Source: a virus. Taken from it: DNA of 52,705 nt. Below the pieces are notes generated by a model, which ran no database searches, was not told the DNA's origin, and was given only the letters and a program-made list of their open reading frames with translations. The stretch lies in the IMG/VR virus record IMGVR_UViG_3300005288_000018, positions 1 through 52,705 of that record, one strand, 5' to 3'. Numbering within the stretch: the first letter of the stretch is position 1; each line of letters begins with the position of its first letter. The position numbers and the translations under genes are program-made. Below are positions 1,722 through 51,601 of this stretch, one piece after another.

Positions 1722-3941
1722 TTAGAAACTAATTTCACAAACACCACCTGCACAAGCTTGGCTGCCCATTGTGTCTACTTCAGTGTAACTCTGCTGAGAA
1801 AGGTCTTTGGAGAAGTCTACATCAACAAAGTTATTGTTGATCCCAACCCATTTGTGAAGATTGTGACAATCCTTCAACATAAAGGTCAGTTTCATAACAT
1901 CCCCATCAAAGTTTCGTTCTGCAAACTTCTTAACTCGACGTACCCAATCACGTTTCAACAAGTCACTAGAGTCTTCTGGATCAAGTTTCAAGCCAAACCC
2001 AAGTGCTGTGTCACAGGCCATCCACAAGTTATTACCAAATGCTTGCAATGCACCAACAATCAAACCAGATGCAAACATTGAGCTATCACCGTACATATCC
2101 ACAATCTGTTGTGCTGTGAACACTTCAGTGAATGGAGCTTGAGCATATGCACGATCACCCATTGAGCTAAGAAGAGAGATACCAGCAAACCATTTACGGT
2201 TGTTGTAAATATACTCCTCAACTTCGTCCCAATCATCGACTGTAATAGTGTTACTTACGTTGTGACGAAGATCCGGGTCAACACACAATTCATAGTTAGT
2301 ACCGTGTTCAATCCAATATTGCTGAGCAGTTTTTACATAATCAAGCTGCTTCACGCCCATCAAATCAGATTTGTAAATACTACCCTCTTTACTTTCAACA
2401 GGGAAGCTAACTACAACGTCTGTCCCGCTACTACTCCAAACACTTGGCTCAACCATTTTAGGGTTGGTCTTAGTGATGATACGAGTAACTTCATCTCCCA
2501 CATTCATCTGTACATTGCGCAAGTATTTAGGGCTGTGTTCCCCATGAATACCAGAAGCTGTACCAAGAATAACGGAAGCATTACCACTTGGTTTAACTGC
2601 TGTAGTTCGTGCTGCCTGATTGATGCCCAACAGTTTTGCAACTTCTTTGTTCACTGCTTTTACAATTGTAGCACCAGCAATCATATTATCAGGATCAAAC
2701 AGTACATCGGGGTTGTTCATCCAACCTGTAATACTTACGCCAAGCAAAGCTTCTTTCTCTGTAATACGTCGTGTAGCATCAGAGAGGTATTTGAAATTAG
2801 AGTAACCAGCTTGCAGAGTACCGAGAATTGCACCAGCCTTACAAGCCCGGAAGAATGATTCTTTATCTACACACTTACCCCCATTAATTTCTGTCAAATT
2901 ACAGAATTGAAAACCTGACTCACCGTTCTCTGCAACTGGCAACATGCCAATTTCTACGCAAGGATTAAAGCAAAACTCTTTGTTCTCTGTGAAGATAAAG
3001 CCGGGTTCACCAAAGTCTTTAACAGACTTCATAATGTTAGCCCACTCTTCACGGCTTAGTTCATCACGAACAAGCATTACAGAGTTATTACTACGACCAC
3101 GTTGAGGGTTATCAACAAACCAATCACCAGTCTTGGCTTTCAACATCAACTCATCATCTTTATCAAACATACAGATGGTTGCAGACCGGCGAACACCACC
3201 ACTCAAAACTGCATCAGACATGTGCATAACAAAGTCATAGGCTGTAATGGTAGGAACGCTAACAGCTTCTGTTTTCCCCTCAACTAATGCTTCCAGCAAA
3301 GCTTCACACTTGACCAACGCACTACGCAACCCAGCTGGACCGGGAGCCTTAAACCCACCAGAAATCAAAGCACCTTTAGGACGAATCTTGTTGAAGTCAA
3401 AGTGTACTTGGCAACCTTTGTATTCAGGGAAACTACCACCATCTACAAAGTAACTACTGAACAATACACCAAATGCATCAGCCCAACCTTCAATTGTATC
3501 TGGAACTTGGAATACTTTTACTTTCTTTTCGTAACGCTTATGTACTTTTGGAAGCTTTGCAATGTGATGGGACTGAACAGAGAAACCAACACCACAACCA
3601 CACAACAGAAGGTACATGCATTCTTGAAAGAATGTCGCACGGTCACAGTGAGATACAGAGCAGTTGTACATACGGGCTTCATGTTTAAACAGTTGCTCAC
3701 CACCAAACTGCAATGCTCGTTGTGCCCCCAGTACAGCTTTATCTTTGTAAGCTTGTTCTGCGAAAGCAATATATTCTTCAAGTTCTGGTGTCATTACAGA
3801 AGCGTACTTCTGTCGGTGCATATTCATTACACGAGAAACAGATTCTTCCCAAGTTTCGTAGCCCCCTTTCACTTCATCCCAACGAGAATAGCCCATGTAA
3901 AATTTAGAGGACGACATCATATCTTTGCCAGCGGTATTCAT
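1722..3941 (-). CDS. nrdJ: Adenosylcobalamin-dependent ribonucleotide reductase (class II)
   Basis: 739 aa, the same length as the monomeric Lactobacillus leichmannii RTPR. It should reduce ribonucleotides to deoxyribonucleotides with a B12-generated thiyl radical. Visible: FNPCVEIG (candidate thiyl-radical Cys), FCNLTEI, an N-terminal NCSVSHC segment carrying a candidate active-site Cys, and the C-terminal CAGGVC pair with the spacing of the re-reducing cysteines. Start ATG has AAGGAG at short spacing. With ThyX, the MazG-like protein and the deaminase it forms the dNTP supply set. Class II makes the phage independent of oxygen but dependent on host cobalamin. No internal stop or intron. Confidence 0.93.
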   Translation of the reverse strand: MNTAGKDMMSSSKFYMGYSRWDEVKGGYETWEESVSRVMNMHRQKYASVMTPELEEYIAFAEQAYKDKAVLGAQRALQFGGEQLFKHEARMYNCSVSHCDRATFFQECMYLLLCGCGVGFSVQSHHIAKLPKVHKRYEKKVKVFQVPDTIEGWADAFGVLFSSYFVDGGSFPEYKGCQVHFDFNKIRPKGALISGGFKAPGPAGLRSALVKCEALLEALVEGKTEAVSVPTITAYDFVMHMSDAVLSGGVRRSATICMFDKDDELMLKAKTGDWFVDNPQRGRSNNSVMLVRDELSREEWANIMKSVKDFGEPGFIFTENKEFCFNPCVEIGMLPVAENGESGFQFCNLTEINGGKCVDKESFFRACKAGAILGTLQAGYSNFKYLSDATRRITEKEALLGVSITGWMNNPDVLFDPDNMIAGATIVKAVNKEVAKLLGINQAARTTAVKPSGNASVILGTASGIHGEHSPKYLRNVQMNVGDEVTRIITKTNPKMVEPSVWSSSGTDVVVSFPVESKEGSIYKSDLMGVKQLDYVKTAQQYWIEHGTNYELCVDPDLRHNVSNTITVDDWDEVEEYIYNNRKWFAGISLLSSMGDRAYAQAPFTEVFTAQQIVDMYGDSSMFASGLIVGALQAFGNNLWMACDTALGFGLKLDPEDSSDLLKRDWVRRVKKFAERNFDGDVMKLTFMLKDCHNLHKWVGINNNFVDVDFSKDLSQQSYTEVDTMGSQACAGGVCEISF

Positions 3942-3972: not shown

Positions 3973-4335
3973 TTAATTTGCGTGCTTCTGTAGCTGATCA
4001 ATAATCATACCGGTATTGTTAATTTGAGCACCAATTGTTTTTAGATCAATTCGAAGATCAAGACTACAATTTTCTACGATTGCATCCCAACTAGCCGAGC
4101 CACCCACTAGCCACTCTTTACAGTTACGCTCATGACCTTGATAAAGGATGCAAGTTACCACATTTCCTTGCAAGTTCCGATGAGTGCAAAGCACCTCTTC
4201 TACCCCCATTGAAACGTCAAGTCCGTTTTCAAATAATACTTGCTTGATCACATCTTGATCATTGTCCCCATAAGCCTTGGTAAATTTATCTACCAAAAGC
4301 AAGTCACTAAATGACAGATTATACCCAACACTCAT
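3973..4335 (-). CDS. Hypothetical protein
   Basis: 120 aa with four Cys. ATG preceded by GAGGAG at 7-8 nt; its start overlaps the end of the HNH gene. No domain recognised. It lies between nrdJ and an HNH gene in the same operon. Confidence 0.65.
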   Translation of the reverse strand: MSVGYNLSFSDLLLVDKFTKAYGDNDQDVIKQVLFENGLDVSMGVEEVLCTHRNLQGNVVTCILYQGHERNCKEWLVGGSASWDAIVENCSLDLRIDLKTIGAQINNTGMIIDQLQKHAN

Positions 4336-4994
4336 TGTGAATCTCCTCGACTAAAACCATAAAGTTCAATTTCTGCTTTTTCGACAGCTTCAACTGCCTT
4401 GTCGTAATCTTTAAAGCTACCGTACCAATATACTTTACCGGCTTTGTTTAACCTAACAATCCACGTGTCTCTATCTGCCCTCCAGTAAACTCCACTCCTG
4501 CCGGAAGTATTAGTGACCCTCTTCCTTTGATTGAAACCTTGAAGACTTAGATCATCTGTCCATACGCAATTTTCTTTGCTGTAGTTCGCATTAACATCTT
4601 TTCTTTCAATAGTGTGAGAATCTGATGGCCTTGGTCCCATGTCTTCATAAAAAGTCTCAAAGCAATAAATCCATTCGGGTGATACACCAATACCCCTTCC
4701 AGCATATTTCATATTGGTCACATCGTTGCATCTGTTTTTCATACTACACCAAACGCTATACTCTGGACTACCTGCCATGTTGTGGGTAATCGAGGACTTA
4801 CCTCTGGCCTCTACTAGCAAACAACCGCAACTATTTGTATGTCCGCTTTTCAGGTTAAGGATTAATTTCTCACAAACAACCCCACAATCACAAAGGCACT
4901 CGATCTTATCCTTAGATTTCAGTTCCTTTTGATCTTGTAATACTGTTAGGAGCCCATACCTGTCCATTCTCTTAAGTTTGATTACTGTTGCCAT
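4332..4994 (-). CDS. HNH homing endonuclease with AP2-type DNA-binding domain
   Basis: 220 aa. N-terminal zinc-ribbon-like CLCDCG...SCGC (about 49-78), a middle 'YSVWCSMKNRCND' helix typical of phage HNH/AP2 proteins, an HNH-like core HTIERKDVNANYSKENCVW (His present, then Asn and Trp), then an AP2-like sheet SGRSGVYWRADRDTWIVRL with KVYWYGSF. Freestanding selfish endonuclease inserted between unrelated small genes; no intron is visible here. Start has only a weak GGGG upstream. Confidence 0.85.
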   Translation of the reverse strand: MATVIKLKRMDRYGLLTVLQDQKELKSKDKIECLCDCGVVCEKLILNLKSGHTNSCGCLLVEARGKSSITHNMAGSPEYSVWCSMKNRCNDVTNMKYAGRGIGVSPEWIYCFETFYEDMGPRPSDSHTIERKDVNANYSKENCVWTDDLSLQGFNQRKRVTNTSGRSGVYWRADRDTWIVRLNKAGKVYWYGSFKDYDKAVEAVEKAEIELYGFSRGDSQ

Positions 4995-11535: not shown

Positions 11536-12135
11536 TTATAGATAGCGTGTGCGAAGTGCTTCGGCTACTCGTGGATCAGTTTGTTGTTCAGCATACATCA
11601 AAGCATACTCATGTTTCTTTTGTTTCCAAGCTAAATGTGCATCTTCAGGATTATCAAACAATCCTATATACGGACCTTTGCCAAATGGGTTATTACATGC
11701 TGCTTGGAACCTTCCAGTCATCTTGTGGAAGTGTACTCCGATAGGGTGCTCCCCTCTTGCACCGGCACTATCAATCAGAAATATATTCACATCATGGGTA
11801 ACAAAAACACAAGTATCGGGCCCGTAAATCTTATTGCCCGGAAAGAGGATATCTTTATCTAACTCCTTACCTTCCCAGTTTTGTGTACTGATCCACTTTT
11901 CAAAATTACTCAGTCTTAGCCATACAGGAGCAACTAAACAATCTTGGTATGTTTGCCTATGATGGAATTTCTCATCGTAACAACGAACCAGCATACTTTT
12001 CCAAATCTTGTATATTGGGCAGATAACATACTTTCCATTCTCTTTCCAATACACAGGTCTGTCTAGATCATTAATCCCAACTCCACAGACAAGTTTATTC
12101 TTTTTCATTGACTCTCTCGTTTGAAAATGGCTCAT
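11536..12135 (-). CDS. Degenerate HNH-type homing endonuclease-like protein
   Basis: 199 aa. Homologous in layout to the protein at 33428: 'W.SM..RCYDE', 'LDKDILFPGNKIYGPDTCVFV' followed by N, then an AP2-like C-terminal sheet (HPIGVHFHKMTGRFQAACN). The position where homing HNH enzymes carry the catalytic His reads LDKDIL, so cleavage activity is doubtful. It directly follows ssb. Start may be 12135 (AAAGG upstream) or 12108. Confidence 0.65.
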   Translation of the reverse strand: MSHFQTRESMKKNKLVCGVGINDLDRPVYWKENGKYVICPIYKIWKSMLVRCYDEKFHHRQTYQDCLVAPVWLRLSNFEKWISTQNWEGKELDKDILFPGNKIYGPDTCVFVTHDVNIFLIDSAGARGEHPIGVHFHKMTGRFQAACNNPFGKGPYIGLFDNPEDAHLAWKQKKHEYALMYAEQQTDPRVAEALRTRYL

Positions 12136-14008: not shown

Positions 14009-14269
14009 TTAGTGACAATTATCCCATCCGCTACCAATCACATAACCTGCCGTCAATTCTACGTTAAGTTTGTAATACTGTCCAGCTTCTTTTACAGATT
14101 CTGCTGCCAATTCACCAGCTCGACACCATGAACGAAAGAAACGTCCATCTTTTGCATGACCAACATCACTCCAGATTTTTCCTTCCTCAGAGAACTCCTT
14201 AGCCTCTTTCTCTGTGTCAAATAGTTTAAACTTAACGAGACTTCTTGTCAACTCTAATTGCGCTTCATC
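14009..14269 (-). CDS. DNA polymerase family A, exon 2
   Basis: 86 codons beginning with Asp-Glu of motif C (YH|DE) and ending ...GSGWDNCH, which parallels the C-terminus of T7 gp5 (NWAICH). It has no ribosome site of its own at the junction. Spliced to exon 1 (14509-16689) it gives an 813-aa polymerase. The second catalytic Asp and adjacent Glu are therefore encoded here, so splicing is required for activity. Confidence 0.9.
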   Translation of the reverse strand, partial: DEAQLELTRSLVKFKLFDTEKEAKEFSEEGKIWSDVGHAKDGRFFRSWCRAGELAAESVKEAGQYYKLNVELTAGYVIGSGWDNCH

Positions 14270-14508
14270 CATTCAGTTATTGAGTTCGCTAAACTCACTC
14301 CGCTTTCACGGAGAATCAGACTATATCACAAACTCTTTCGAGTCTCCTGCCGCTTCGAATGCGCTTGCATCCTACTCCCTTCCGGGATAGTCGTTACACG
14401 TTCCTAATAAATTAGGCTTCGCTCGGGATTGGCATAGCTTTCGCCTTAGCTTTCCCCGAATTCAACAGGTTATTCAATGCACTTCACAATGCAAGGCCAC
14501 AATTATTT
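14270..14508 (-). other. Group I intron in the DNA polymerase gene (239 nt, no ORF)
   Basis: Follows a U (CAT|) and ends in G before GATGAAG, the group I rule. Hairpins on the minus strand: P7 CGACTA (14393-14388) with TATAGTC (14325-14319); P8-like ACTC-GAAA-GAGT (14343-14332); P9-like CTCCG...CGGAG (14313-14298) and TGAGTT...AACTCA (14297-14281); a G/C-rich P3-P6 region at about 14380-14460. Reading through gives one Lys then TAA, so the unspliced product stops before motif C Asp. Known phage DNA polymerase introns of T7-like and SPO1-like phages are precedents. No endonuclease is encoded within; an HNH gene adjoins exon 1 upstream. Confidence 0.9.
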
Positions 14509-16689
14509 ATGGTACGCAATCATTTGTTGGCAATACTTCTTACTTTTCCAGTCATCTTTAAAGAAGTCTACAGACAACCCTTCAGCTTTAAGCTTACGGG
14601 CATGAATAACCATAGCTCGCTTTGCACAAATAACACCTGCACTTTGGAACGCTGTGTTAATCACATTGCCTTTTGACCGAATAGGCAGCTTACGCTTATC
14701 AATCCCCATCAAGAATTTCTTCTGTCCTGTTGTCTCCCAATACTGTTGCATACGTTCTTTTAGCTCTTTAAGAGGATTAGCCAGCGTCCAAAACTCATCA
14801 AAGATAATTTGAGCGGTTTCTAGGTCACAGCCAACAATTTTAGCGACTCGTGCCACTTGTGCATTGTAACTGCATCCGTACTTCACAGATTTTGCACTAT
14901 TACGGGGGAACTCACGGCCTAGAATATCACTAATTCGACGGGCTAGAACAGAGTGACAGTCGTTAGGCTTCTCAGCAGTGAGACTTACACCATATTCAGG
15001 ACCACCTTTATATCGGTAAACGTAATGACTTTCTATTTTTGCCTCAAGGCTGTCAAAATCGTAACCAAGTTGTACGTATCCACCCCCAACACCAAACAAG
15101 CTACGCATTTGTTCCCCATAAAGCGAGGTATTACGAGGAATGTTCGCCACTAAACGATGCTTGAATCTGCTGGTCCCAGCCCCGCAAGTGTCTGCTGGTG
15201 TTGGAATCCGTCCATCTTCACGAACGTTAGGCATAAACCCACTCTCGTGTTCATCATCGTCTTCTTCAGGATCATACCCACCGCCAAGAATACTGTTACG
15301 GCGGTGACTATAAGTCAAGAAGTCAGCAAGCTTTCTTGCGTGAGGAAAGCTGCTCTCTAGTGCAATAAGTCCGGGGCAAATCTCCTTCTCTTGTCCTACT
15401 GTAAGTGTGGGGTTAGTCAATACTTTAAAGCTTTTAGCACAACCTTTTGCCAACAACTTAGCTTTAATGTTGTTCTTGTTAAGGTTCAAGTGCTCCAGAC
15501 GATACTTACAGAAAGGGCTGGCTAAGGTCTGTTCAACATATCGTTCTACAGCAGCTTCAAACTTCTCTTGTGTGAGACGGTTCTTCTTTGCATCACAAGT
15601 AAGGTCACGTTCCTTCCAAGCCGAAGGATTCCAGCCAAACTTAGATACAAGCCATTCCTTAATGTGTGTTGTGTCTTTCAAGGTTGATGGAACTTCAGTC
15701 AGCAATGGTTCTGCTGCCATTGGCAGAGCATATTCTTTGTCAAAGATTGTAGCTTTCTTCAACTCTTCATCAATAGATCCACCATGCTTCTCTACAAACT
15801 TTTTAATGTTTGCATTCAGTTCACCAGACTTAAGAAACTGTTTAGTTGGAGGTGTAAAGAAATCCATTCGTGTCTTAGCCAATGGCTTAGGCGGCAACAC
15901 TGGTTCAACTTCACTGCGCAAAGCCTCAAGTTTGATATCAAGATCGCGAACAAGTTCAATAGCTCGTTCTGTCTTAAAGTCAAACCCTCGGTGCTCTTGT
16001 CGAGTGATAATTTCAGCTACAGACTTTTCAAGACTAATAGCGTCCGACCAATCCCAAGTTCCTTTCTCAGCTTCCAACATCTTGTAGACTTGAGTGTTGG
16101 CTTTTACGTCATAGATGCAGTAATAAATTAAATCTGCTGCCATGTCTTCAAAGCGAATTGAAGCGTCCATATGCTTACGGAATTCACGCTTCTGAATACC
16201 TGTTTTTTGAGACAGAGAATCAAGACTGTGCCCACCAATCCGATCCGGGTTTAGCACTTTAGACGTCACCATAGTATCGGAAATCTCAATTGACTTCCCA
16301 CACCAGATATCAGGCTCTACTTCATATTCCATATCAAAGTATAACTTACAAGCTAGTAAGTCAAAGTTGATAATGTTTGCCCCTATTACCTTTGATACAG
16401 GGTTGTCCTTGATATACGAGACAAACTCACTCAATTGATAATGATCATACTCTTGCTCCAAATAGTTTTCTAGAACGTAAGTATGTTTACCAACCACTTC
16501 TTCATACTTACGACCATCAAAAATGTATTTAGGGCCATTGTAAAAAGCTACAATCTTTCCTGTCTCATGCTCTTCAACCACAACGCAATGCATCTTAAAT
16601 GAATCTTTAAGCTTGTAAGGAGATGCACAGTAATCAATGGAATCTGAATTCAGCAGCCCATTTGTCTCGATATCATAGGTAATAATCAT
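14509..16689 (-). CDS. DNA polymerase family A, exon 1
   Basis: 727 codons up to the His of motif C. N-terminal 3'-5' exonuclease: YDIETNG (DxE), ANIINFDLLA, and YYCIYDVKAN (YxxxD). Polymerase: LGYDFDSLEAK (motif A), FPRNSAKSVKYGCSYN (motif B with Lys and Tyr-Gly), then FKDDW...MIAYH leading into motif C, completed by exon 2. The spliced 813 aa exceeds T7 gp5 (704). Replicative polymerase working with the primase-helicase at 17453. ATG overlaps the upstream HNH stop (ATGA). Confidence 0.95.
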
Positions 16690-17444
16690 ACTATCTCTTT
16701 CGTCTCCTCTAGCCTTTTCAGAACAGCCTGATAGGCGTCCAATTCATTTTCATGTTGACCTAAATTTATCTGCTTTAGTTTACCATCAACGTATTCATTT
16801 GTAAACGCCCGCCATTTTCCTTTTCGTCCTTTAGCAACGCCATAATATTGGGAAGTTTTATTTCTTCGCTTTTGCTTACCGGCAGGCGTTAAGTCTTTAA
16901 TTGACAGATAATAATCATACGCTACTTGATCACCTTGTTCAATCTTTATTTTCTTTATCGTCTCATACCGTTGAATTGCCAACTCTTTGTCATCAACATT
17001 GAAGATTCCAAGATTTTTGGTACTCCCGAACATTCCAATCTGAGCAATCCAAGCATTATGATAAGGATCGAAGCTTACTCCCATATCTCCGCTTTTATTT
17101 CGCAGCCCTAATCCGATGTTATTTTGTTGCTCTTTCTTTGTAGACCATTTGCAATTCTCTTTGGAATATTCTTTATCATTATCAATACGATCTAACGTAG
17201 TTCCTTCAGGACGTTCTCCAACGTCTGTTACAAAGTTGAAAAAGCCTTTAGGGTTATCCCAACGCCAATTACTATTGACTAAAACACCTCGTGCACCATA
17301 ACGATGATAGGCTTTATGCCTAGTATCATAGCAACGCACATTCATCATTCGCCAAGTTGTATGTAATGGATGTTTGCTAACAGCTCCCATACCTAGTTGA
17401 GTTGTATGTGAATACTCCCCACTGTATTCCTCTGTGTAGCCCAT
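16686..17444 (-). CDS. HNH homing endonuclease with tandem AP2-like domains
   Basis: 252 aa from the ATG at 17444 (GAGG, 6 nt). 'TTWRMMNVRCYD', then TLDRIDNDKEYSKENCKW (HNH core with Asp/Asn/Trp; the first His position reads Leu-Asp), then two AP2-like repeats (SGDMGVSFDPYHNAWIAQIG; YYGVAKGRKGKWRAFTN). It sits between primase-helicase and polymerase exon 1 with overlapping start/stop codons. Its neighbourhood makes it a candidate partner for spreading the polymerase intron. Confidence 0.85.
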   Translation of the reverse strand: MGYTEEYSGEYSHTTQLGMGAVSKHPLHTTWRMMNVRCYDTRHKAYHRYGARGVLVNSNWRWDNPKGFFNFVTDVGERPEGTTLDRIDNDKEYSKENCKWSTKKEQQNNIGLGLRNKSGDMGVSFDPYHNAWIAQIGMFGSTKNLGIFNVDDKELAIQRYETIKKIKIEQGDQVAYDYYLSIKDLTPAGKQKRRNKTSQYYGVAKGRKGKWRAFTNEYVDGKLKQINLGQHENELDAYQAVLKRLEETKEIV

Positions 17445-17452
17445 ATTAATCC

Positions 17453-19099
17453 TCAAAAATCATCTGGAACTTCCTGTGCAAGCAATACTGCCCAAGTGTT
17501 TTCATCAATAGTAAATTCATCCGCCACACCCAAGTAACTCCAAGGGCGGTTCTTCAGAACAGTTAGTCGAACATTACCGCGTGAGCGGTCAGGCATAATC
17601 TGTGGCTCCAAACCAATAATAACAAAGCTAAGTTGTTCCAAAGCAGCAGAACCACGCATCATTTCTTTACTTACTTTAACCCAAAACGGTTTGTCTTCAT
17701 TACCTTTTGGTGGTTTGAACTGCTCAGCAGCGCTACGGTTAATGTGGCTGACTGCAATAACACAAACATCGTTAGCTGCACAAAAGGCTGCCAACTCTGT
17801 CATTACAATATCAAGCTCCTTTCGTTCATCAGTAACATGGCTGCCACTAACTACCATGCTCAAGTGGTCAATAAGGATATATTTACACCCTTCAACCAAG
17901 TGCATGTGCTTCACTTTGTTCATTAGCTCACTTACTGGCAAACTGCCAAAGTGTCCCAACATAACCAAGAGGTCGTTATCAACAATCTCATTTCGAGCTT
18001 GAGTGATTTGCTCCAGTGTTGCACATTCAAGAGGTTTATCTTTGAACTTCAAGTAGCTGACTTTAAGCTTAGCTGCAATCAATCGCTGCATTGTTTCCTT
18101 GTTACTCTCCTCCAGATAAATCATCCCAAGCTTTTCACCGGATTCCATAAAAGAACTAGCGAAAATAGACGTTACCGTTGATTTCCCCACACCCGAGGGA
18201 CTAGTCAGCAAAACCAGCTCACGAGTTCGAAAACCATGAAGTTTATCCATCAACTTAGGGAATTCATTTACATACACACCTTCTGGGCGGGGCTCCAGCA
18301 GCTCTTCAATACTAATATCTGAAGCCTTAACAATCTTCTCAGCAGAGTAAGCACGTTTGCCAAATTGGACAAGTTTAGCCAACTCTTCACTACGACCCGC
18401 TTGAAGGTAATCACTTGCATCCTTTAGGCCGTCTGCTGGAGCAACAGTCATCAAAGATAACCCTGTCCCTACAAAAGCATTAGCAACAGCTTCACGGGCC
18501 TCATGCCCCTTCATAATACCTTTCTTGGTTTCAGCCGGAGTACAGTAATCATCGTCAAAAAAGATTGTCAATGAATCGTGCGATGTGATATAGGATTCAT
18601 TGTGCAGCAAAGCTTCAACAGCATTAGCTGTACCCAAAGGGATACTTACAACAAGCGGTTCAATACCTTCGTACTTAGTACCTTTAACATTATCGCACAA
18701 CGCCTGATAAATACTCAGACAGTCCCATTGGCCTTCTGAACAGATAAGATTAGTTCGTTTACGATTAATATTTTCGGCTACTTCTTGTCCAAACAACTTG
18801 TTACCAATTGAAACACTGCCGACAGCAGACCAATGGCCTTTCTCATCTTTGCCTTTTGTTACGTCTTGTTTTGTATAACCAACAACTTTCCCCTTCTGAT
18901 TGTAAGAAGGGAAATAGAAAGCCTCTGGTGTTTTACCATCCTTCTCAGACACAGCAACTTTAACACCAAAGCGCTCAAGAGTAGCTTTACGTACTCCACG
19001 TTCTGGTGCATCACAGGCTGAGTATTTCTTAACATCATCAATTGTTTCTTTATTAAAAACTTCCACTTCTCGCTCCTTTAGCTTTTTAAAATAACTCAA
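17453..19099 (-). CDS. T7-like primase-helicase lacking the zinc domain
   Basis: 548 aa. TOPRIM primase: EGQWDCLSI (E-G-x-x-D, about 122-130) and TIFFDDD (about 178-184). RecA-type helicase: SPSGVGKST Walker A (about 305-313), YILIDHLSM Walker B, VIAVSHINR and MMRGSAALEQL. Opens and primes the fork for the polymerase. The T7 gp4A N-terminal Cys4 zinc finger is absent, as in gp4B. TTG start with AGGAG 6 nt upstream. Confidence 0.92.
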   Translation of the reverse strand: MSYFKKLKEREVEVFNKETIDDVKKYSACDAPERGVRKATLERFGVKVAVSEKDGKTPEAFYFPSYNQKGKVVGYTKQDVTKGKDEKGHWSAVGSVSIGNKLFGQEVAENINRKRTNLICSEGQWDCLSIYQALCDNVKGTKYEGIEPLVVSIPLGTANAVEALLHNESYITSHDSLTIFFDDDYCTPAETKKGIMKGHEAREAVANAFVGTGLSLMTVAPADGLKDASDYLQAGRSEELAKLVQFGKRAYSAEKIVKASDISIEELLEPRPEGVYVNEFPKLMDKLHGFRTRELVLLTSPSGVGKSTVTSIFASSFMESGEKLGMIYLEESNKETMQRLIAAKLKVSYLKFKDKPLECATLEQITQARNEIVDNDLLVMLGHFGSLPVSELMNKVKHMHLVEGCKYILIDHLSMVVSGSHVTDERKELDIVMTELAAFCAANDVCVIAVSHINRSAAEQFKPPKGNEDKPFWVKVSKEMMRGSAALEQLSFVIIGLEPQIMPDRSRGNVRLTVLKNRPWSYLGVADEFTIDENTWAVLLAQEVPDDF

Positions 19100-37936: not shown

Positions 37937-39028
37937 TTAATCAGTATAGGAGATAACTTTATCAGTTAAATCTACACCGAAGTACTTCAAGATATCCTCA
38001 AATGAACACTTAAGGGTGTCCTTCTTGGCTTTGGTCTTTTTATAATCTAACCCAAAAGCTTCATACCAATATTTAGGGCTGCCAGCTACACCATCAATTG
38101 TAACTTTCTTAATCCTCTCTGGAGGGGAAAGTAGTGCATCCCTTAGAGACATACCTTTACCTGTTCGAGTAGTAACATTACTCATTGTCTTATTAAAGTG
38201 TTTGCATAGCTCTTCAATAGTCCCAGTTACCCCTTCTACAGTTTGACGGAGATGATCTTTACCATCATAAGCCAATATTTCATCCAGTGTTTTACCAGCC
38301 CTATGTAAAGTCTTCCACAACCCAATAACAGAAGGGTGGGTTCTTTCAAACATCTCGTTATTCTGATACCAATGACCAACTCCTTTTGAATCTAGTACTT
38401 CAAAACTTAAACTCCAGTCAGGACGGATATCATACACAGCATTCCAAATCTCCCATCCTTGTGAAAGCCTTGAGCTTACTGATGCGTAATCTTTATTAAG
38501 GTTGTCACAAAGGTCTGTAAGATAAATCTCTTTATCATTCCAAAGCACTTTCCTACGCATGTAACCATAATCTAAAAACTCTTGGTATCGATCTACTGCT
38601 TGTTGATCAGTCAGACCAGAATTCAAACTGGCATAGATGTGTTGATATGCCGCATCTGGTTTGTCATATTGTTTTACGAATTCAAGTAGGTGTACATCTC
38701 CAATCATCGTGCTGTTATCAAGGTTTCGTTTATTACCTGAACTGTCAACCCAACGAAGATTAGAAACGTGATTGTTCATTTTGTCTCTGTCGATATGATC
38801 TACCATGGGAAGGTTATCAGGATTCTCAACAAATGCTTCAGCAACCAAACGATGAACTCTTACAAGTTTAGCCTTCTGCCCTTTCAGGTGAAAATTAACA
38901 TATTTGTATTGTGGAATGCCTGTTAGAACTTGAGCTACTTCAACATCTGCGACAGTATTCCAAACCCTTGCATCAGTACTAACTTTATATTTACCATTCC
39001 AACCCTCTACTTCTTTCCACTCAATCAT
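37937..39028 (-). CDS. NUMOD4/HNH homing endonuclease
   Basis: 363 aa. Starts with a NUMOD4 motif (EWKEVEGWNGKYKVSTDARVW), then an HNH core DHIDRDKMNNHVSNLRWV (His, Asn, Asn-x-x-x-Trp all present). C-terminal 200 residues carry repeated DNA-recognition segments (e.g. 'VTGTIEELCKHFNKTMSNVTTRTGKGMSLRDAL') like those of intron-encoded DNA-binding tails. Own AAAGGAG site and the 22-bp element upstream. The most intact homing nuclease in the window, at the end of the right arm. Confidence 0.88.
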   Translation of the reverse strand: MIEWKEVEGWNGKYKVSTDARVWNTVADVEVAQVLTGIPQYKYVNFHLKGQKAKLVRVHRLVAEAFVENPDNLPMVDHIDRDKMNNHVSNLRWVDSSGNKRNLDNSTMIGDVHLLEFVKQYDKPDAAYQHIYASLNSGLTDQQAVDRYQEFLDYGYMRRKVLWNDKEIYLTDLCDNLNKDYASVSSRLSQGWEIWNAVYDIRPDWSLSFEVLDSKGVGHWYQNNEMFERTHPSVIGLWKTLHRAGKTLDEILAYDGKDHLRQTVEGVTGTIEELCKHFNKTMSNVTTRTGKGMSLRDALLSPPERIKKVTIDGVAGSPKYWYEAFGLDYKKTKAKKDTLKCSFEDILKYFGVDLTDKVISYTD

Positions 39029-50833: not shown

Positions 50834-51601
50834 TTATTTACCGTGATTTTCTGTGTAACCAGCACCGACCAGATTTAAACGTTCAATCATCAACGACCTA
50901 AACTCACAAGCAGCAAAGAAAGCTAATTCATCACCATATTTAGGTATTGAAAAGTACCTACTCTTTTGTTTTCCGCTTGTAGGATACCAACTTGCACACC
51001 AATAATCTTTGCCATCCGATCCAGTGTGCAATCTTACCCCGGTTACACCACTCTTGTTACTATTATACATACCCTTGTTTCTGGCTTGCATATCATCATT
51101 TGCCCATCTTACATCCCCTTCTACGTAACCAAGGGAATTTTCTATTCGATCAACTGAGACACGCCCCTTGAAGTTTTCCGGTATAGGTCCAATGTCATTG
51201 TAGAAATTCACAAAACTTTCCGAAAATGCTTGTGAAATACCAATCTTCGAATAAACTGCATACTCTTTTGAATTTGGGTTAGTACAACGACCTTTCATTC
51301 TTTTCCAAACTTTCTGCTCAAGACTTCCTGACATTCCGTGGGTGTAATACTTCTCTGCAAAAGCCTTATTGGTGACAGCAATCACTTCTAAGTGTAGACA
51401 CCCACAAGATCGCGTATCATTAGCGGACAACTCTGCAGAAGTAACTTTAGTAGTATTACCACAAGAACATTCTGCATTCCATACCAAAGTCCTCCGAGTT
51501 GCATGCCTACCTTCAACATTCTTGATAACCAGTCTTCCGACTTCGTGGCCTGTCCAGTCTAAGGCATTGGATGCAACTCTTACCCCATTAATTTCTTTCA
51601 A
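50834..51601 (-). CDS. HNH homing endonuclease with AP2-type domain
   Basis: 255 aa, TTG start with GGGAG upstream. N-terminal CSCGN...SCGCL zinc ribbon, 'QKVWKRMKGRCTN', VSVDRIENSLGYVEGDVRW (HNH-like, first His position replaced), then AP2-like SGVTGVRLH and YWCASWYP. Sits between phoH and the ClpP-like gene, separating what is probably an older gene pair. Confidence 0.82.
   Translation of the reverse strand: MKEINGVRVASNALDWTGHEVGRLVIKNVEGRHATRRTLVWNAECSCGNTTKVTSAELSANDTRSCGCLHLEVIAVTNKAFAEKYYTHGMSGSLEQKVWKRMKGRCTNPNSKEYAVYSKIGISQAFSESFVNFYNDIGPIPENFKGRVSVDRIENSLGYVEGDVRWANDDMQARNKGMYNSNKSGVTGVRLHTGSDGKDYWCASWYPTSGKQKSRYFSIPKYGDELAFFAACEFRSLMIERLNLVGAGYTENHGK

Follow-up and report, generated by a model that had tools for sequence, protein, structure and literature searches.

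Organization of the DNA polymerase locus

The stretch of DNA analysed here in full, hereafter the window, is a virus record of 52,705 bases that is probably a fragment of a genome. On its minus strand, a DNA primase/helicase gene (17453-19099; phrog_239, 1e-119) is followed by an HNH gene and then by a family A DNA polymerase gene, the gene ends overlapping. The HNH gene (16686-17456, minus strand; phrog_374, 6e-40) encodes a free-standing endonuclease of 256 aa; it lies between helicase and polymerase, upstream of and on the same strand as the first polymerase exon, whose start it overlaps by 4 nt (ATGA). Among phages with cultured hosts, distant relatives of the window polymerase are the Pakpunavirus, Phapecoctavirus and Aeromonas phage polymerases, and the element that hosts the intron described below is a tailed phage known from metagenomes only.

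The polymerase is encoded in two parts. Exon 1 (14509-16689, minus strand; codons 1-727 within an open reading frame at 14503-16689) specifies a 3'-5' exonuclease-like N-terminus together with most of the polymerase domain and ends ...QQMIAYH; the next codons are AAA TAA, and the unspliced frame stops at 14503 after ...QQMIAYHK. Exon 2 (14009-14269, minus strand; codons 728-813 plus stop) begins DEAQLE, and its sequence is unbroken with that of exon 1 in intronless relatives. When 14509 was joined to 14269, the result was an 813-aa protein reading ...IAYHDEAQLE... with the C-terminus DNCH. Exon 1 alone scored 41.3 bits against Pfam DNA_pol_A, and the addition of exon 2 raised the score to 43.9 bits and extended the reach along the profile.

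A group IA2 intron separates the two exons

The 239 nt between the exons (14270-14508, minus strand) are a group I intron. An Rfam covariance search, which the original prediction had proposed as a check, matched RF00028 at 14519-14297 on the minus strand over the whole model (1-253) with 83.6 bits (E 7e-20; cut-off 50), and this was the sole gathering-level Rfam match within the window. The intron is preceded by U and terminates in G (CAU|AAAUAAUUGUGG and ...GAAUG|), and both features were kept in 11 of 11 intron carriers. No open reading frame of at least 50 aa was found on the coding strand of the intron.

We examined structure in an alignment of five introns with their exon flanks, four of which are mutually close (94-97% identical), the fifth being that of locus L014. 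RNAalifold returned P1, P2, P3, P4, P5, P6/P6a, P7.1, P7.2, P8, P9 and an extra 3' hairpin, with P2 capped by a GNRA loop. Compensatory changes were present in 22 of 75 pairs, most of them contributed by L014, and the folding z-score was -3.2, with none of 200 shuffles folding as well. P1 (14497-14512, minus strand; alignment columns 19-36) pairs exon CCAU|AA with intron UUGUGG and places a U.G pair at the 5' splice site. The guanosine-binding helix P7, a pseudoknot, was seen in invariant alignment columns read against the group I consensus, its 5' strand being GACUA (14388-14392) and its 3' strand UAGUC (14319-14323), both on the minus strand. P6a (14403-14416, minus strand) has a short loop in the window intron. 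The P7.1 and P7.2 hairpins (14357-14387, minus strand; columns 152-182) read UCCC-GGAA-GGGA GUA GGAUGC-AAGC-GCAUUC. Since the joining of P7.1 to P7.2 by GUA serves as a criterion for IA2 (PMC3428280), this signature places the intron in subgroup IA2. We also observed that exon 1 UGAUUGCGU (14514-14522, minus strand) could pair with exon 2 GCGCAAUUA (14255-14263, minus strand) in the window and in L006; the pairing is incompletely kept in L007 and L008 and is probably due to chance.

The central claim of the original prediction, that a 239-nt group I intron splits the His|Asp-Glu of motif C, is borne out by the Rfam match, the exon ends, the intronless relatives and covariation. The exon boundaries it gave (MIAYH followed by AAA TAA, and DEAQLE...DNCH) are exact to the base, its P8 and P9 were recovered by RNAalifold and its P7 from invariant columns, and the bases it named at the two splice sites and the lack of an open reading frame were likewise observed. 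It had further claimed that DNA replication is gated by splicing. The unspliced product would indeed be a 728-aa protein ending ...YHK that lacks the motif C aspartate; however, we found no sign of regulation, close relatives do without the intron, and such gating is trivial because any intron in an essential gene has the same consequence.

The insertion site and its intronless alleles

The intron lies between His727 and Asp728-Glu of motif C of the family A DNA polymerase. The exact splice junction was fixed by intronless relatives that read ...IAYH|DEAQLE... without a break, namely L002 (98% aa identity), L003 (96%), L004, L005 and L034 (IMG/VR), while other relatives carry 226 to 808 nt inserted at exactly the same point. 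In an alignment to phage T3 the insertion point falls in AWIH|DEIQV, which is polymerase motif C; we take E. coli His881-Asp882-Glu883 to be this motif and Asp882 its aspartate.

The base before the junction differed with intron status. The codon was CAT in all 11 carriers, compared to 17 CAT and 59 CAC among 76 intronless alleles (Fisher p 8e-7, an indicative value because related alleles are treated as independent), and the five intronless clade-mates of the window listed above all have CAC. Insertions of 738-990 nt were also observed elsewhere in the polymerase gene, near codon 606 (L015, L019, L079, L080 and L090) and near codons 548-556 (L016, L087, L094 and L096); L079, L080 and L094 have two insertions within one polymerase gene.

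Distribution of the intron and proposed mechanism

At least 11 phage contigs from the environment, the window and 10 further ones, carry an intron at the motif C site. Nine of the 10 additional introns passed the Rfam cut-off, the exception being L076, whose match is split by the open reading frame it contains. A search of viral contigs with an 18-base intron pattern matched three loci, all already known, and BLAST of the intron against isolate phages returned, among the matches examined, introns inserted elsewhere (RCIP0099, MQM1) or lying in intergenic DNA (KIL1). Additional Rfam group I introns occur in close relatives, at 91003-91270 and 92460-92725 of L006 and at 83987-84232 and 85456-85667 of L004.

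Taken together, these findings make it very likely that a self-splicing group IA2 intron sits at His727|Asp728, and we propose that it spreads by homing with an endonuclease acting in trans. The intron RNA would excise itself through two guanosine-initiated transesterifications, and joining of the exons (CAU|GAU) would restore the HDE motif, so that the insertion would be roughly neutral as long as splicing works. Spread would proceed at the DNA level into intronless alleles, with the endonuclease presumably supplied in trans because the intron has no open reading frame of its own. Since close intronless relatives have CAC, homing would also have to bring in the U at -1 on which the U.G pair in P1 depends.

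Endonuclease genes flanking the polymerase

Which endonuclease might act in trans was considered for genes on both sides of the polymerase. The relatives are mostly metagenomic fragments, and the absence of a neighbouring gene was scored only where the flank was long enough. The window itself is rich in HNH elements: besides the gene at 16686, four other HNH homing-endonuclease-like genes lie on its minus strand (4332-4994, 11536-12135, 37937-39028 and 50834-51601).

The first candidates are downstream or intron-encoded genes. The intron might have arrived once together with an intron-encoded or downstream endonuclease of the HNH_3/phrog_59 type that has since been lost, and free-standing relatives of that enzyme may now cut in trans. 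Consistent with this, the same-site intron of L076 encodes an HNH_3 open reading frame, placed in the P6a region as read from the sequence. Furthermore, four distant carriers with ORF-less introns have homologous HNH_3/NUMOD4-like genes directly 3' of exon 2 (L073, 7729-8343; L079, 4313-4942; L080, 8613-9161; L089, 2464-3003), compared to one of 67 intronless loci. The corresponding Fisher p of 7e-4 is indicative, as related sequences are treated as independent, and independent pairs on the tree divided 4:0 (p 0.125), four pairs being too few for significance. The queries were partly drawn from carriers, and the L076 query alone recovers the same four. No such gene adjoins exon 2 in the window's own lineage, where the candidate trans partner is the free-standing phrog_59 gene at 37937-39028 (minus strand), which belongs to the family of the L076 intron-encoded HNH. 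This gene was rejected as a specific partner: it is missing from the 92.9-kb record of the carrier L006, and a copy 63% identical to it is present in the record of the intronless L004. We regard this origin as a serious possibility that nevertheless stays short of probable, and the downstream, L076-type HNH genes appear to be a better lead to the mobility of the intron than the upstream gene.

That upstream gene, the HNH at 16686-17456, had been put forward in the original prediction as a gene that could serve the mobility of the intron. Collaborative homing of this kind, via a free-standing HNH endonuclease at the intron insertion site, is described for T3 gp5.3 and phiI (Bonocora and Shub 2009, as summarized in PMC3984707 and PMC10448857). 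T3 gp5.3 follows gene 5 and gives a 47% match to the HNH inside T7-like introns. The window resembles the T3/phiI pair in having an ORF-less intron and a free-standing endonuclease adjoining the same gene, and L073, L079, L080 and L089 resemble T3 in that the endonuclease is directly downstream; in the window, in contrast to T3, the neighbouring HNH is upstream and uncoupled from the intron. The idea that it is a dedicated trans homing endonuclease draws on its sharing an operon with the intron, at a distance of 2.2 kb, and on the presence of an upstream endonuclease gene in 7 of 9 carriers versus 15 of 71 intronless loci. That excess comes mostly from one clade, however, and independent tree pairs numbered 2:0 or 2:1. 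Moreover, BLASTP gave no match between the window HNH and T3 gp5.3.

The contents of the slot between helicase and polymerase also count against such a dedicated role. Among the nine close relatives the slot holds the window type (the window and the intronless L002), phrog_953 types (L003, L034, L005 and L007), a phrog_374 type (L004 and L006) or an endonuclease VII type (L008). An 88%-identical copy of the window HNH adjoins the intronless polymerase of L002, whereas the carriers L006, L007 and L008 each have a different endonuclease, and the window, phrog_953 and phrog_374 types, each of which was seen repeatedly, all occur both with and without the intron. Because of this uncoupling in L002, L006, L007 and L008, we rejected the upstream HNH as a consistent partner of the intron, and the slot instead appears, from gene content, to be a hot spot for endonuclease turnover; such hot spots are a general trait of phage genomes (PMC10448857). 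Thus, the gene named in the original prediction is real and a candidate partner at most, while the specific partnership proposed for it is unlikely.

Probable recent movement of the intron

The intron was present in 11 of 83 polymerases, a distribution that takes 10 gain or loss events to explain on the polymerase tree, about as many as with shuffled labels; the tree is a quick, unrooted build in which gain and loss are indistinguishable and some long branches may be misplaced. Within the nearest clade of nine, four members carry the intron (the window, L006, L007 and L008) and five do not. The introns of these four are 94-97% identical, compared to 60-69% identity at third codon positions of their polymerases; constraint on the ribozyme could account for part of this high identity. 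A search for co-conversion next to the insertion point gave no clear tract: the flanks of carriers were 88% identical, a value within the range of other sequence windows, and the window and L006 were alike close to the intron while carrier pairs as a group did not exceed other windows.

The tree counts would be equally compatible with a vertically inherited relic that has been lost repeatedly and has not moved recently. However, intron similarity is out of step with polymerase similarity, in that the closest of the more distant introns is that of L073 (69%) and its polymerase is not the closest. In addition, precise loss would be expected to leave CAT in close intronless alleles; since carriers have CAT and intronless clade-mates have CAC, gain with a short flank, or replacement of the allele, is likelier than clean loss. 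We therefore consider purely vertical descent to be decidedly improbable. Instead, the patchy distribution, together with intron identity above that of polymerase third positions, indicates that the ORF-less intron has probably moved recently and horizontally.

The intron ends in ATG, which in unspliced RNA is a start codon in frame with exon 2 (14009-14272, minus strand); this is likely a chance occurrence because more distant carriers end in TTG, GTG, CTG or AAG. Despite the 87-aa open reading frame (ATG GAT GAA) that opens at these last three intron bases, those same intron ends, the full-length Rfam match, covariation and the presence of the same insertion in independent contigs leave practically no room for the gap being a frameshift, an assembly fault or a split gene yielding two polypeptides.

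Relationship to known polymerase introns

According to PMC3428280, introns at site 881 (E. coli numbering) of the phiI and W31 polymerases were reported in 2004. Like the window intron, these lie in a family A polymerase at the same His|Asp junction and belong to IA2; they differ in that their P6a contains an HNH gene of the I-TslI type, and the window phage is of a lineage other than T7-like, its polymerase being ~25% identical to that of T3. The T7-like records Bas103 and Sekstaphage-1 (L032 and L033) have the same junction (VH|DEIQV), and same-site introns with an HNH open reading frame are found in T7-like records. The Bas103 polymerase is annotated as spliced and that of Sekstaphage-1 is not; in the latter (Escherichia phage Sekstaphage-1, OR545379.1) the VH|DEIQV intron with its HNH, at 2424-3154, is annotated as separate genes. 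The introns of SPO1, SP82, Bastille and Pf-WMP3 (I-HmuI, I-HmuII, I-BasI and I-PfoP3I) are likewise IA2 and interrupt phage family A polymerases, but they occupy site 674 and encode HNH endonucleases (PMC3428280). Bastillevirinae introns are also of group I and have invaded polymerase genes repeatedly, as here, although they belong to another phage group, are mostly longer (mean 802 bases) and in many cases contain nuclease genes (PMC11878797). The gene family, site and subgroup were thus already known from T7-like phages in 2004, and the window differs in its lineage and in the lack of a nuclease open reading frame. What is new is that the motif C site intron also occurs beyond T7-like phages, patchily distributed and in no fewer than 11 environmental contigs.

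For annotation, these findings mean that gene calls that ignore splicing break the polymerase at the catalytic aspartate, Sekstaphage-1 being an example. The near-identical alleles with and without the intron provide a ready set for studying how introns that lack a nuclease move. Tentatively, and as a proposal that we hold to be rather less than probable, a single lineage of ORF-less introns occupying the motif C site may owe its continued mobility throughout a broad group of large phages to changing free-standing endonucleases that flank the polymerase, with L076-related downstream HNH genes placed beside the intron repeatedly. If this were true, collaborative homing would be a recurrent arrangement that extends beyond the single case of T3 and phiI.
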